NCBI RefSeq assembly: GCF_030140925.1
Contig: NZ_JARBWD010000001.1
Span: forward strand, 992,001 to 1,056,000
DNA: 64,000 bases
Direction: 5' to 3'
DNA from: Parerythrobacter aestuarii
GTDB lineage: Bacteria > Pseudomonadota > Alphaproteobacteria > Sphingomonadales > Sphingomonadaceae
The notes under the pieces were generated by a model. It was not told the DNA's origin, made no database searches, and saw only the letters and a list, made by a program, of their open reading frames with translations. Shown here one piece after another: positions 15,965-37,700 of this stretch. The translations under genes and the position numbers were made by a program. The number at the start of each line of letters is the position of its first letter. Positions within the stretch are counted from its first letter, which is position 1.

Positions 15965-16981
15965 ATGACGCCCGCAATCTTCGGTATGTCCGGCCTCGCA
16001 TTGACGGCGGACGAGCGTGCCTTCTTCAAGGAGGCCGATCCGGCGGGCTACATCCTGTTCGGACGCAATGTCGAAAGCCGTGCCCAGATGCACGCGCTGA
16101 CCGATGAATTGCGGGCGATCCATGGGCGCGACGAGCTGTTCATCTGTATCGACCAGGAAGGCGGCCGGGTGGCGCGGATGAAGGCACCCGAATGGACGAC
16201 ATTCCCGGCCGGCGAGACATTTGACCGGCTCTATCGCCAGGCACCTGCCAGCGCGATCGAAGCAGCGCGCGTGAACGCGCAGGTACTGGGAATGGAACTG
16301 GCCGAAGTCGGCATCACAGTCGATTGCCACCCGCCGCTCGATGTCCGCCAGCCCGGCGCGCATGACGTGATCGGCGACCGATCACTGGGCAGCGACCCGA
16401 TGCAGGTGGCGGCACTTGGGCGCGCCATCCTCGACGGGCTGGGGCGCGCCGGCGTGCTCGGCTGCATCAAGCACATGCCGGGCCATGGCCGGGCGCAGTG
16501 TGACAGCCACAAGGAAATGCCGACGGTGCATGCTACGGTGGAGGAACTGCAGGTCGACCTCGCTCCGTTCAAGGCGCTTTCGGACACTCCGGTGGGCATG
16601 ACCGGGCACCTGCTGTTCCCGGCCTGGGATAGCAAGAACCCGTCGACACTGTCATCTACCATCATCGGCGACATCATCCGGGGCGAGATCGGGTTCGACG
16701 GGCTGCTGTTGACTGACGATATCGACATGCAGGCGCTTTCCGGCACCATCCCGGAACGGGCCGAGCGAGCCCTCTCCGCGGGATGTGACGTGGTCCTGAA
16801 TTGCTGGGGCACGATGGAGGACATGCAGGGCATCGTCGCGCGCTGCGGCACCATGCGGGCTGAGAGTGTCGCGCGGCTGGAGCGAGCGCTGGCGTCGCGC
16901 AAGGCGGGGCTTGAAGCCGACAAGGCCACCTTGCTGGCGAAGCGCGATGCGCTGTTAAGTGTGGAAGGGGCGGCGGTATGA
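15965..16981 (+). CDS. nagZ: Beta-N-acetylhexosaminidase, GH3
   Basis: This 338-aa cytoplasmic enzyme removes GlcNAc from anhydro-muropeptides during cell-wall recycling. GH3 landmarks: FICIDQEGGRVARMK, the NagZ-type His loop CIKHMPGHGRAQCDSHKEMP (catalytic His and Asp), and the nucleophile region GLLLTDDIDMQAL. The length matches NagZ. Its ATG is the first after the candidate terminator. The scpA start overlaps its stop in ATGA, so the genes are translationally coupled. Confidence 0.95.
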   Translation: MTPAIFGMSGLALTADERAFFKEADPAGYILFGRNVESRAQMHALTDELRAIHGRDELFICIDQEGGRVARMKAPEWTTFPAGETFDRLYRQAPASAIEAARVNAQVLGMELAEVGITVDCHPPLDVRQPGAHDVIGDRSLGSDPMQVAALGRAILDGLGRAGVLGCIKHMPGHGRAQCDSHKEMPTVHATVEELQVDLAPFKALSDTPVGMTGHLLFPAWDSKNPSTLSSTIIGDIIRGEIGFDGLLLTDDIDMQALSGTIPERAERALSAGCDVVLNCWGTMEDMQGIVARCGTMRAESVARLERALASRKAGLEADKATLLAKRDALLSVEGAAV

Positions 16982-34019: not shown

Positions 34020-34847
34020 ATGAGTGAATACCAGGTCATAACCAGCGACGACGACGTCCAGCGCGACGGCACCATCAAGCTCCACGGCCCCGACGGGTTC
34101 GAGGGCATGCGCAAGGCTGGCCGGCTGGCCGCCGAAATCCTCGACGAAGTGGCCGATTTCGTGAAGCCCGGCGTTACCACCGGCGAGATCGACGATCTCG
34201 TGCGCACCATGACGCTCGATGGCGGCGCGGTACCGGCGACGATGGGCTATCGCGGCTATGCGCACAGCTGCTGCACCTCGATCAACCACGTCATCTGCCA
34301 CGGCATCCCGGGCGACAAGGTGCTGAAGGATGGCGACATCATCAATGTCGACGTGACCCCGCTGCTTGACGGCTGGCATGGCGACACCAGCCGTATGTTC
34401 TTCGCCGGCGAACCGTCGCTGAAGGCGCAGAAGCTTGTCGAAGTGACCTATGAATGCCTGATGCTGGGGATCGAAGCGGCGTCGAAGCCCGGCGCTCGGC
34501 TCGGCGATATTGGAGCCGTGATCGAAGCGCACGCGCGCCAGCACCGCTATGGCGTGGTCCGCGAGTTCTGCGGCCACGGCCTCGGCCGCCTGTTCCACGA
34601 CGCGCCGGAAGTGGTCCACGCTGCGCGGGCGGGGACAGGGCCGGAGCTCAAGCCCGGCATGTTCTTCACCATCGAACCGATGATCAATCTCGGCAAGCCT
34701 TGGGGCAAGGTCCTCAAGGACGGCTGGACCGCAGTTACGCGTGACAAATCGCTAAGCGCGCAGTTCGAACACTCGTTGGGTATTACGGAAGACGGGATCG
34801 AGATCTTTACCGCGAGCCCGACCGGGAAGCACAGGCCGCCGTATTAG
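34020..34847 (+). CDS. map: Methionine aminopeptidase type I
   Basis: This 275-aa metalloenzyme removes the initiator Met. The pita-bread fold metal ligands are visible: Asp in NVDVTPLLDGWHGDTSRMFF (two Asp), His in REFCGHGLGRLFHDAPE, Glu in FTIEPMINLG and Glu in QFEHSLGITEDG. The substrate His is in CTSINHVICHGIP. It has a short N-terminal extension of about 25 residues before the catalytic domain. The GIY-YIG cassette sits directly behind its stop. Confidence 0.97.
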   Translation: MSEYQVITSDDDVQRDGTIKLHGPDGFEGMRKAGRLAAEILDEVADFVKPGVTTGEIDDLVRTMTLDGGAVPATMGYRGYAHSCCTSINHVICHGIPGDKVLKDGDIINVDVTPLLDGWHGDTSRMFFAGEPSLKAQKLVEVTYECLMLGIEAASKPGARLGDIGAVIEAHARQHRYGVVREFCGHGLGRLFHDAPEVVHAARAGTGPELKPGMFFTIEPMINLGKPWGKVLKDGWTAVTRDKSLSAQFEHSLGITEDGIEIFTASPTGKHRPPY

Positions 34848-34864
34848 GCGATTTCCATCAACAC

Positions 34865-34895
34865 CGTCACCCCGGGCTTGACCCGGGGTCCCACT
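34865..34895. repeat. REP-like palindrome, left copy of an inverted pair
   Basis: The core is a perfect 8-bp stem (ACCCCGGG with CCCGGGGT) around the loop CTTGA, with CGTC before and CCCACT after. It matches 29 of 31 bases of the copy at 35218-35248 read in reverse. The two differences are paired: a G-C closing pair here is a C-G pair there. Confidence 0.9.
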
Positions 34896-34912
34896 TCCTT
34901 CTTCCTCGCGCG

Positions 34913-35212
34913 ATGGGCGAAGAAGGCAAAGGCGGTTGGGTCTACATAATGGCCGATGTCTATCGCGGCACCATGTATGTCGGCGTTACAGCGCATCTGT
35001 CGGAGCGGATCACGCAACATCGCGAAGGCAATGGGTCGGATTTCTGCGCCAAATACGGGCTCACGCGCCTCGTTTGGGCAGAGCGCGGGGACGACATTCA
35101 TGCCTGCATTGAGCAAGAGAAGCGCATCAAGAAATGGCGGCGTGAGTGGAAGTTCGAGTTGATCGAACGCGCCAATCCTGAGTGGGAGGATTTGTTCGAT
35201 ACGCTGATCTGA
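34913..35212 (+). CDS. GIY-YIG family nuclease inside a REP-flanked cassette
   Basis: This 99-aa protein is a single GIY-YIG domain of the small UPF0213/YhbQ-like group. Visible: the family motif as GWVYIMADVYRGTMYVGVT (VYI...MYVG), the catalytic Arg in SERITQHREGNGSDFCAKYG, and the metal Glu in ACIEQEKRIKKWRREWK. The last part is WKFELIERANPEWEDL. It starts 17 bases after one REP-like palindrome and ends 5 bases before a second in opposite orientation, giving a compact 384-bp unit. A second ATG lies 12 codons on but would remove the first motif. It may be the enzyme that moves or maintains the palindromes; that is inference. Confidence 0.9.
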   Translation: MGEEGKGGWVYIMADVYRGTMYVGVTAHLSERITQHREGNGSDFCAKYGLTRLVWAERGDDIHACIEQEKRIKKWRREWKFELIERANPEWEDLFDTLI

Positions 35213-35217
35213 AAGGC

Positions 35218-35248
35218 AGTGGGACCCCGGCTCAAGGCCGGGGTGACG
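35218..35248. repeat. REP-like palindrome, right copy of an inverted pair
   Basis: A perfect 8-bp stem (ACCCCGGC with GCCGGGGT) closes the loop TCAAG, with AGTGGG before and GACG after. It is the inverted partner of 34865-34895 and lies 5 bases after the GIY-YIG stop codon and 18 bases before the end of the convergent sat-cysC gene. Confidence 0.9.
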
Positions 35249-35266: not shown

Positions 35267-36982
35267 CTAAGCCCCCAAATACCCCAGTTTCTCCAGCTTC
35301 AGCAGCACCTGCTGCGCGGCCTGGTCGATGGTGATATCGGTCGTGTCGATCCGCATTTCGGGGTCTTCCGGCTCCTCGTAAGGATCGGAAATGCCGGTGA
35401 ACTCCTTGATCACGCCCGCGCGGGCCTTGGCGTAGAGGCCCTTGCGGTCGCGGGCTTCGCACACTTCCAGCGGAGTGTTGACGTGGATCTCGAGGAATCC
35501 GCCGAGCGGCTCGATCAGTTCGCGGACCACGCGGCGGCTGCCGGAATAGGGTGCGATCGGGGCGCAGATGGCGATGCCGCCATTCTTAGTGATCTCGCTC
35601 GCGACATAGCCGATCCGCTCGATGTTGAGATTGCGGTGCTCCTTGGAGAAGCCGAGCTCGCTGGAGAGGTTCTTGCGCACCACGTCGCCGTCGAGCAGCG
35701 TCACGCGGCGACCACCCATCTCCATCAGCTTGGTCATGACCGCATTTGCGATGGTCGATTTGCCGCTGCCGGAAAAGCCGGTGAAGAACAGCGTGAAACC
35801 CTGTTCGGTGAGCGGAGGATGCCGCTCGCGCAGCACCTTCACGACTTCGGGGAAGCTGAACCAGTCGGGCAGTTCGAGATTGTGCTTTAGCCGCCGCCGC
35901 AGCTCGGTGCCGGAGATGTTGAGCTGGGTCTCATGGCTCTGGACCTCGTCCACCGGTGCATATTGCGCCCGCTCTTGCACATAGACCATCTGCTTGAATG
36001 GCACCAGGCTGATGTCGAGCTCTTCCTGATGCTCGACGAACAGGTCCTGCGCGTCATACGGCCCGTAGAAATCCTCGCCGTTCGAATCCTTGCCCGGCCC
36101 GGCATGGTCGCGCCCGATGATGAAATGCGTGCAGCCGTAATTCTTGCGGATGATGCCGTGCCACACCGCCTCGCGCGGGCCGGCCATGCGCATGGCGAGC
36201 GGCAGGAGCGAGAGCGCGCTGGTCTGGTCAGGGTAATGCGCCATCAGCTTCTCGTAGCAGCGCACGCGGGTGAAATAATCGATGTCGCCCGGCTTGGTCA
36301 GGCCCACCACCGGGTGCAGCAGCAGGTTCGCCTCGGCCTCGCGCGCGGCGCGGAAGGTTAGCTCCTGATGCGCGCGGTGGAGCGGGTTGCGGGTCTGGAA
36401 GGCGACGACCTTGCGCCAGCTCCACTTGGCGAACAGGTCGCGCAATTCCTGCGGACTGTGGCGGTTATGCGTGAAGTCGAAATGGCGCGGGGCCTGCACG
36501 CCTTTCAATTTGCCGCCGAGATAGACCGGGTTCGAATGGTTGAGCAGCCGATCGACTTCGGGATGCTTGTCATCGGTCGTGCCGAGCACGCCTTCGCATT
36601 CGGCACGCTTGTCGGGCGTCCACTTGTCGCTGATGGTCATGGTGGCGACGAGCACGCCTTCGCGGTCACGCAGGGTTATGACATCGCCTTCGCTCACCGT
36701 ATCGGCGAACTCCTGCGTCACATCCATGGTGATCGGGATCGGCCACAGCAGGCCGTTAGCAAGCCGCATGTCTGAGACGACGCTGTCGTAATCGGCCTTG
36801 CCCTGGAAGCCCTCGAGCGGGGAGAAGCCGCCATTGAGGATCAGTTCGATATCACACAGCTGGCGCGGGGTCAGGTCCCAGCTGGGCCAGTCCTTGGACC
36901 TGGCTTTTTCCTCGGCAGCCTCCTCTGCGTTCAAATAGAGGTTCTTCAGCTCGCCGCCGTGCGGTTCCTTCAAGGCTCCCAA
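35267..36982 (-). CDS. Bifunctional sulfate adenylyltransferase/adenylylsulfate kinase
   Basis: This 571-aa protein is a Sat-CysC fusion that turns sulfate into PAPS. The N-terminal ATP sulfurylase (about 1-375) has PUA-like and catalytic parts with VVAFQTRNPLHRAHQELTF and IGRDHAGPGKDSNGEDFYG. The C-terminal APS kinase (about 385-571) has the Walker A GFSGSGKSTIANAV and LLDGDVVRKNLSSELGFSKEHR. I read the start as the TTG at 36982, 7 bases after GGGAG; homologues begin at about this point (ALKEPHGGELKNLYL). The frame is open further upstream into ccmB but that stretch is not conserved-looking. No cysDN or cysH lies in the window. Confidence 0.9.
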   Translation of the reverse strand: MGALKEPHGGELKNLYLNAEEAAEEKARSKDWPSWDLTPRQLCDIELILNGGFSPLEGFQGKADYDSVVSDMRLANGLLWPIPITMDVTQEFADTVSEGDVITLRDREGVLVATMTISDKWTPDKRAECEGVLGTTDDKHPEVDRLLNHSNPVYLGGKLKGVQAPRHFDFTHNRHSPQELRDLFAKWSWRKVVAFQTRNPLHRAHQELTFRAAREAEANLLLHPVVGLTKPGDIDYFTRVRCYEKLMAHYPDQTSALSLLPLAMRMAGPREAVWHGIIRKNYGCTHFIIGRDHAGPGKDSNGEDFYGPYDAQDLFVEHQEELDISLVPFKQMVYVQERAQYAPVDEVQSHETQLNISGTELRRRLKHNLELPDWFSFPEVVKVLRERHPPLTEQGFTLFFTGFSGSGKSTIANAVMTKLMEMGGRRVTLLDGDVVRKNLSSELGFSKEHRNLNIERIGYVASEITKNGGIAICAPIAPYSGSRRVVRELIEPLGGFLEIHVNTPLEVCEARDRKGLYAKARAGVIKEFTGISDPYEEPEDPEMRIDTTDITIDQAAQQVLLKLEKLGYLGA

Positions 36983-37040
36983 GTCGTCTCTCCCGAATCG
37001 ATTTTTGCAAATGTGATCAAAGCATAGATCGGCGTCCGGC

Positions 37041-37700
37041 TCACCCCCCGCGTGCGGCGCGGATCGCGGCACCGGCGGCGAAAGGGGCAATGGCGCAGAG
37101 GGCGAGGCTGATCGCTCCGGCGAGCGCGATGCCGGTGGTGTCGCCCTGCGCCAGGCTGCCCGCGCCGAAGATCAGAATCGGGACCGCCAGCGGCAGCAGC
37201 AACAACCCGCCCAGCGCCGCACCTGCGCGCAAGCTTGCCATCAGGCTGGCAACGATCAGGCCGATACCGGCAAGACCGGGCGTGCCTGCCAGCAGGCCGA
37301 GCAGCACCAGCCGGGTCGTAGCACCGTCCAGCCCCAGCAAAGCGGCAGCGGGGAAGCATGCCAACAGCAAGAGCGGCGCGAAGGCCAGCCAATGCGCTAG
37401 CAGGCGGCTGGCCATGGTCACTTCCTCGGCAATGCCGCGCAGCGCGAACTGGTCGAACACTCCTTGCGTCAGGTCCTCGGTCACCAGCCGGTCGAGCGGC
37501 AGGATCGCGGCGAGCAGGGCAGCGACCCACAACACCCCGCCCCCGGTCCGCGCCAGCAGCGGCGCATCCGGCCCGACTGCGAATGGATAGAGCATCGCCA
37601 CCGCGAGGAAGAACAGCAGCGGCAGGATCGCCCCGCCGCGCGAGCCCCCTGGCAGGAGCAGCGCGAGGTCGCGCCGGAGCAAGCTGCCGAACACGCTCAT
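37041..37700 (-). CDS. ccmB: Heme exporter protein B of the cytochrome c maturation system
   Basis: This 219-aa membrane protein has six hydrophobic segments and is the permease partner of CcmA. The start [19 protein letters not shown], the segment LPLDRLVTEDLTQGVFDQ and the end ALCAIAPFAAGAAIRAARGG fit CcmB. The ATG at 37700 overlaps the ccmA stop in ATGA. The rest of the ccm system is not next to it. Confidence 0.92.
   Translation of the reverse strand: MSVFGSLLRRDLALLLPGGSRGGAILPLLFFLAVAMLYPFAVGPDAPLLARTGGGVLWVAALLAAILPLDRLVTEDLTQGVFDQFALRGIAEEVTMASRLLAHWLAFAPLLLLACFPAAALLGLDGATTRLVLLGLLAGTPGLAGIGLIVASLMASLRAGAALGGLLLLPLAVPILIFGAGSLAQGDTTGIALAGAISLALCAIAPFAAGAAIRAARGG

Follow-up and report, generated by a model that had tools for sequence, protein, structure and literature searches.

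The stretch of DNA analysed here, a 64-kb window of the Parerythrobacter aestuarii genome, contains at 34865-35248 a compact cassette in which a 99-codon GIY-YIG nuclease gene stands between a CGTC-tagged palindrome and the same palindrome inverted. As judged from the open reading frames, its neighbours are map (+ strand, 34020-34847) and a sat-cysC-like gene (- strand, 35267-37090). The parts of the cassette are:

34865-34895, + strand: upstream CGTC-tagged REP, made of the CGTC tag, an 8-bp stem, a CTTGA loop and a tail; the tag points outward and the element folds as a hairpin
34896-34900, + strand: inner extension of the inverted repeat, upstream arm, giving an arm of 36 nt in total
34913-35212, + strand: GIY-YIG nuclease gene, 99 aa, identified by its open reading frame and a PF01541 match
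35213-35217, - strand: inner extension of the inverted repeat, downstream arm, placed by the inverted-repeat alignment
35218-35248, - strand: downstream CGTC-tagged REP, inverted, with the CTTGA loop kept and stem pair 12:18 reading C:G, not G:C

The original prediction held that two inverted 31-base elements hug this gene and agree at 29 of 31 bases with a compensated stem pair, and the letters bear this out in full. The upstream element lies 17 bases before the ATG and the downstream element 5 bases after the stop. Their two differences are at positions 12 (G/C) and 18 (C/G), which pair with each other, so that a G:C pair in one element is a C:G pair in the other and the 8-bp stem is kept. 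The inverted repeat extends beyond the elements to 36 nt (34865-34900 and 35213-35248; 92% complementary), and the cassette thus carries terminal inverted repeats in the manner of an insertion sequence or MITE. Its inverted-repeat score is 28.5, compared with maxima of 15.0 and 15.5 in 389 and 534 control windows. Two regular expressions for these REP types find no further hairpin in the 64 kb; one extra match, at 16501, has no matching stem.

The 99-residue product matches PF01541 at 44.3 bits (cut-off 22.6). In a 37-row alignment Y11, Y22, G24, R32, H36, E69 and N88 are conserved; R32, H36, E69 and N88 do not vary at all and Y11 hardly does, and we take these last five to be the catalytic residues, Glu69 being the catalytic glutamate. 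An AlphaFold model (mean pLDDT 92.9, pTM 0.84) puts Glu69 and residue 74 on one helix (62-74), residue 76 in the turn that follows and residue 82 on a second helix (77-87). At these three positions, which we treat as specificity positions, the window enzyme has K74, R76 and E82. The nearest solved sequences in a PDB profile search are the UPF0213 proteins 1zg2 and 1ywl, and Foldseek ranks 1zg2 first at only E 8.6e-3, followed by Slx1 and UvrC. With the UPF0213-like proteins the enzyme shares a single-domain fold of about 90-100 aa, but the REP-flanked group differs from them in carrying variable residues at 74, 76 and 82. The host genome has five GIY-YIG matches, one of them UvrC-sized, and each of the remaining four genes is bracketed by a different palindrome type. 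A Y1 transposase (PF01797) gave no match in the genus of the window (G000-G004), and on this ground we rejected a RAYT as the mobilising enzyme there; 9 of 40 relatives do have such a match.

The palindrome resembles the CGTC REPs described by Di Nocera et al. (2013) (PMC3733652). According to that paper, these have a CGTC tag, an 8-bp stem and a 4- or 5-nt loop, form outward-facing (HH) dimers, are intergenic, often at gene 3' ends, and are thought to be transcribed. They are present in five phyla and include dRS3 of Neisseria, counted as CGTC-1, and RPE-4 and RPE-6 of Rickettsia conorii. They are apparently without a dedicated transposase, and the term GIY-YIG does not occur in the text (PMC3733652). 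In family 2 the short unpaired tail is mostly CCA and the first two stem positions are almost invariably A and T (PMC3733652). The window REP matches the layout of this family (CGTC tag at one end, 8-bp stem, 5-nt loop) and departs from its norm in that the stem starts A-C, not A-T, and the tail reads CC and then C. The REPs with a 4-nt loop, which we call B-type, have the layout of family 1.

A search of the host genome for the core pattern with at most two mismatches gives 8 matches, and the reversed control pattern gives none. Two of the 8 are the cassette itself. The genome-wide search suggested along with the original prediction thus finds the core pattern beyond the cassette in 6 copies, and all 6 lie in inverted, outward-tagged pairs, the dimer arrangement of family 2. 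Eight copies are few for a REP family and fall short of the high copy number of CGTC REPs. Five dispersed pairs measure 86-93 bp (L005 was left out), and the inner ends of two pairs (L004 and L007) resemble those of the cassette. From this layout and these similar inner ends, the cassette looks like a REP pair with a gene in the middle. One pair of the host genome (L006, at C1:2319797) is mixed, one half being a window-type REP and the other a B-type REP with a 4-nt loop, so two enzyme types may share one pair.

How general this arrangement is can be seen from 69 small GIY-YIG genes in 40 related genomes (the host genome included; UvrC-sized matches and 9 short fragments left out). For each gene we aligned the upstream flank to the reverse complement of the downstream flank, with a score of 16 as threshold, and scored 534 control windows of the same geometry from the same loci. 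Inverted palindromes bracket 56 of the 69 genes and none of the 534 control windows, and the majority of these palindromes are REPs with the CGTC tag. Among the 13 genes below threshold, inspection by eye finds REPs on both sides in 7, on one side in 1 and on neither in 5; two of these five (L022, L023) are orthologs of each other and branch apart on a long branch of the protein tree. When the palindromes are sorted by hand into types and laid on the tree of the 69 proteins, the type changes 19 times; shuffling gives a mean of 44.7 and in 200 rounds never comes down to 19. One could suppose that REPs simply gather around small dispensable genes between operons, with no recognition involved, and it fits this supposition that CGTC REPs are intergenic and often sit beside gene ends (PMC3733652); the count of 56 of 69 against 0 of 534 in the same loci speaks against it.

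In a wider scan of species genomes we found at least 573 relatives, of which the best 80 were scored, without control windows. Of these 80, 55 reach the threshold, with representatives in Nitrospirota, Chloroflexi, Omnitrophota, Delta- and Gammaproteobacteria and one candidate phylum; two Planctomycetes loci among the 80 fall below it. Viral contigs with both flanks reach it in 11 of 16 cases (again without control windows), and in phage records there were distant matches only, in 5. Over all scored loci the threshold is reached in 184 of 239 (56/69, 66/96 and 62/74). Two Neisseria gonorrhoeae records (listed as plasmids, 2.17 Mb long) have a GIY-YIG gene inside an array of dRS3-type repeats. 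Between these two loci (L296 and L306) the gene differs by 5 bases near its start, and the surrounding array differs too.

Two further observations concern the cassettes in this collection. A second GIY-YIG subfamily (...YYTGHTDDLE...GWSRAKK; L014-L016, L024, L026, L027, L044, L046, L048, L054 and L072) pairs with a palindrome that has no CGTC tag, CCGTTCG..GAGCTTGTCGAAGG.., and in L024, L026, L027 and L046 the frame of the GIY-YIG domain stays open across the downstream palindrome and reaches the following gene; fusion proteins may thus be encoded. In two pairs of same-locus cassettes (L075/L076 and L024/L027) the cassette lies in opposite orientation relative to its neighbours, as if flipped between its inverted REPs.

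If an enzyme recognises the palindromes around it, changes in one should be matched by changes in the other, and among the 4-nt-loop REPs the identity of residue 74, five residues after Glu69, goes with that of stem pair 10:19. In the discovery set K74 occurs with C:G in 58 of 59 loci, E74 with G:C in 11 of 13, D74 with G:C in the single case and A74 with A:T in 5 of 5. Further loci, a count that includes two off-centre copies (L272 and L273, both dropped from the pooled set), give A74 with A:T in 16 of 16 and S, T or G74 with A:T in 3 of 3. In these loci K or R74 combined with K76 goes with T:A, a class defined only after they had been examined. The pooled set holds the 111 of 220 offered loci that were located and had a B-type REP as well as the motif; L139 (identical in sequence to L020), L236-L239 and L252 (already included) were left out. 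Here the code fits 102 of the 105 loci for which it makes a prediction, the misses being L179, L199 and L215. N74 has no clear preferred base, and L051, which lies outside the regular expression, has K74 and K76 yet C:G.

A stricter test comes from a rule of four classes (K- with C:G, acid with G:C, KK with T:A and small with A:T) that was fixed in writing before 80 new regions were fetched. We located 74 of them; 40 had a B-type REP and 38 a prediction. The pair is as predicted in 33 of these 38 loci, while shuffling gives a mean of 12.4 and a maximum of 24 in 100,000 trials. By class the rule succeeds in 11 of 15 (K-), 2 of 2 (acid), 4 of 4 (KK) and 16 of 17 (small), and it misses L316, L318, L374, L379 and L387. 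The nearest identity of the fresh proteins to the earlier set has a median of 66% and a maximum of 88%.

Shared ancestry bears on how such a covariation is read. When the motif columns are removed before the tree is built, the palindrome pair undergoes 16 changes, compared with a shuffled mean of 39.0 and a lowest value of 33 in 200 shuffles. The best tree offers 15 independent contrasting pairs, of which 13 follow the code, though the protein trees are weakly resolved and only 1, 1 and 3 contrasting pairs stand on well-supported branches. Orthologous cassettes at the sucD-sucA junction offer a direct comparison: in G000, G001 and G019 the enzymes read K-K-W and the palindromes C:G, and in G004 the enzyme reads K-A-W and all three palindromes there have A:T. 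The G019 enzyme also has K76, for which the later rule predicts T:A, so G019 counts as an exception. The chemistry of the code is plausible, with Lys or Arg going with G, Glu or Asp with C and a small residue with T.

The stem code at pair 10 is not seen in the 5-nt-loop class to which the window belongs, and the code that carries over to this class is one for the loop. In an unbiased scan covering 152 B-type loci and 979 residue-by-position tests, the top rank after correction goes to residue 82 with the last loop base, followed by residue 74 and then residue 76, each with pair 10:19; by raw score residue 74 with pair 10:19 leads. The fourth strongest covariation joins residue 52 (window numbering) to stem pair 7:22, a possible third contact. 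R or K82 goes with G and E or Q82 with A as the last loop base in 89 of 93 earlier loci and in 27 of 28 later ones, although the rule was derived from the pooled scan that included the later loci, so this second count is not independent. Among REPs with the 5-nt loop, N or T82 occurs with CTTGT in 10 of 11 cases. For E, D, A or Q82 the loop is CTTGA in 27 of 27, three of these being near-identical orthologs from Sphingobium and one (L290) a hairpin that is doubtful. The window itself has E82 and CTTGA loops on both sides. Stem and loop are separable: L266 and L270 combine a CTGAA stem with E82 and CTTGA, and L075 and L076 a CCGGA stem with N82 and CTTGT. Of the two codes, only this one holds in both REP classes.

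On these comparisons of sequence, we consider it very likely that the GIY-YIG nuclease specifically recognises its own REPs. Neither the matching of types nor the residue-base code has a passive explanation, and a chance gathering of REPs around dispensable genes is thereby contradicted, unless the covariation is an artefact of shared ancestry; we regard such a passive association as highly improbable.

We then ask whether REP numbers across genomes follow the enzyme. Five genomes with an A74 enzyme have 72, 56, 4, 6 and 30 A:T REPs, and seven with K74 but without A74 have 0-3 (exact p=0.0013). Genomes with an A-type cassette have more A-type copies, and this remains so inside the family (p=0.011). 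For the B-type the excess in genomes with a cassette is seen over all 40 genomes (p=0.0041) but not inside the family (p=0.29), where the sum of A and B copies likewise shows no difference (p=0.14); all these copy-number p-values ignore kinship. We set copy number aside as a proof of pairing, the B-type correlation vanishing within the family. The original prediction had also suggested asking if genomes with many copies always carry the enzyme, and they do not: without an intact matching enzyme there are 164, 58 and 26 A:T REPs in G014, G013 and G021, and 178, 136 and 75 C:G REPs in G005, G015 and G032. Either REP populations outlive their enzyme, or another route exists. In G013 a GIY-YIG fragment beside A:T-type REPs (C73:3226-3463; 58 such REPs in the genome) is likely a dead cassette.

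Single loci show the cassette present in some strains and absent in others. At a Sphingobium junction between fnrL and a response regulator, TomMM7A, TomMM15, TomTYG46 and TomTYG73 have a window-type cassette, and TomTYG64 and TomTYG74 (two changes) have no gene and one palindrome tagged at both ends. TomTYG72 has no palindrome of the cassette type, and the divergent TomTYG65 has another, untagged one. The single palindrome consists of the left arm of the upstream REP and the loop and right arm of the downstream REP, joined through a shared 8-base stretch. Judged from its letters it may be either what a deletion left behind or a state that preceded the cassette, and slippage could also produce it, without the nuclease. 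At sucD-sucA the cassette is found in 4 of 30 genomes read and a gene-less REP pair in two (G013 and G015). A clean insertion site was considered there and rejected: the intergenic letters of occupied and empty genomes do not align, so there is no exact target. Neither a target-site duplication nor a clean empty site turned up, and the gene-less Sphingobium alleles keep a palindrome. An empty map/sat-cysC site, which had been expected in relatives, was not found in the 5 relatives' or paralogous loci checked (L084-L086, L107 and L108; 20 other matches were left out), since map is absent within the fetched flanks beside their sat-cysC or cysC-like match; the gene-less allele is that of the related Sphingobium cassette only.

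GIY-YIG is the fold of homing endonucleases of the I-TevI type, and the gene might be a selfish endonuclease of this kind that targets REP pairs, the REPs being spread by something else and the gene settling between them. The shared catalytic fold makes selfish spread by DNA cutting conceivable, such an enzyme would also account for the recognition code, and the gene-less pairs of G013 and G015 sit at the very junction where other genomes have the cassette. However, the gene is a free-standing intergenic reading frame, with no intron or intein, no interrupted recognition site and no additional DNA-binding domain in its 99 aa. Both REPs are intact around it, so insertion would leave the site unprotected, and such an enzyme would cut all over a genome carrying dozens of REPs. 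CGTC REPs are not known to have another enzyme (PMC3733652), and the genus has no Y1 match. We think this explanation rather unlikely.

Several cassettes are old and occupy the same position in different genera (sucD-sucA in the four genomes, and one locus common to six C-type cassettes), and the enzyme may now be largely domesticated. Carried further, the same fixed places could mean that the enzyme is a host nuclease acting on REP hairpins, as DNA or RNA, in repair, transcript processing or self-regulation, and never moved REPs, which would suit elements thought to be transcribed near gene 3' ends (PMC3733652). A nuclease of this sort would hardly explain why the dispersed REP population follows its stem preference, why one genome (G004) has as many as eight small GIY-YIG genes or why presence varies between close strains, and we judge it unlikely.

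The reading we prefer, to which we give a probability of roughly 0.72, is that a REP family occurs in the window cassette in its enzyme-bearing form, with a GIY-YIG nuclease that recognises its own REPs and plays a role like that of a RAYT. Mobilising or rearranging these REPs is probably the work of this nuclease, now or in the past. Residues 74 and 76 would read the stem base pair and residue 82 the last loop base; the enzyme would nick or cut at REPs, probably as hairpins folded on single-stranded DNA, and host repair or re-joining could then copy, move, invert or delete the DNA between two outward-tagged REPs. On this view the cassette would be the autonomous element, and the dispersed inverted pairs of about 86-93 bp, having no gene, would be its non-autonomous counterparts, comparable to MITEs or REPINs. 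That a GIY-YIG enzyme takes the RAYT part had been proposed from the window alone; the specific pairing of nuclease and palindrome stands, through bracketing, type matching, covariation and a gene-less allele, while the cutting and moving of REPs is something we infer.

As in REP/RAYT systems (REPtrons, REPIN-RAYT), a single enzyme gene has inverted REPs of the host genome's own family on either side, one genome has several enzyme-REP pairs, inverted pairs without a gene are dispersed, and REPs are able to outlive their enzyme. The difference is that a RAYT is an HUH tyrosine (Y1) transposase working with GTAG REPs, whereas here an unrelated GIY-YIG nuclease goes with CGTC REPs. The window REP shares with the CGTC REPs of PMC3733652 the tag, the 8-bp stem, the 5-nt loop and the HH dimers; those were described without a dedicated transposase, and the covariation seen here with a GIY-YIG nuclease suggests that it is their missing enzyme. 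Among the papers listed in searches of an open-literature collection, none links GIY-YIG enzymes with CGTC REPs by title and abstract (PMC12306157, PMC9465073 and PMC10928387 included, in their accessible parts); subscription papers and preprints lay outside this scope, so an earlier report is possible.

We lean, a little beyond even odds, towards a wider conclusion: small GIY-YIG nucleases would be what drives CGTC REPs, including neisserial dRS3 and perhaps the Rickettsia RPE elements, as a class of mobile DNA. This would be a second and unrelated invention of the REP-RAYT kind, with a code by which residues 74/76 set one pair of the stem and residue 82 one base of the loop. CGTC REPs were left without a known enzyme in 2013 (PMC3733652), and with a specific partner the question of their origin can be put to a direct test. 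The residue-base code would be an unusual natural case of protein-DNA recognition in a 99-aa nuclease, and it names the exact mutants. It also predicts which enzyme belongs to which repeat family in a genome, dRS3 of Neisseria included.
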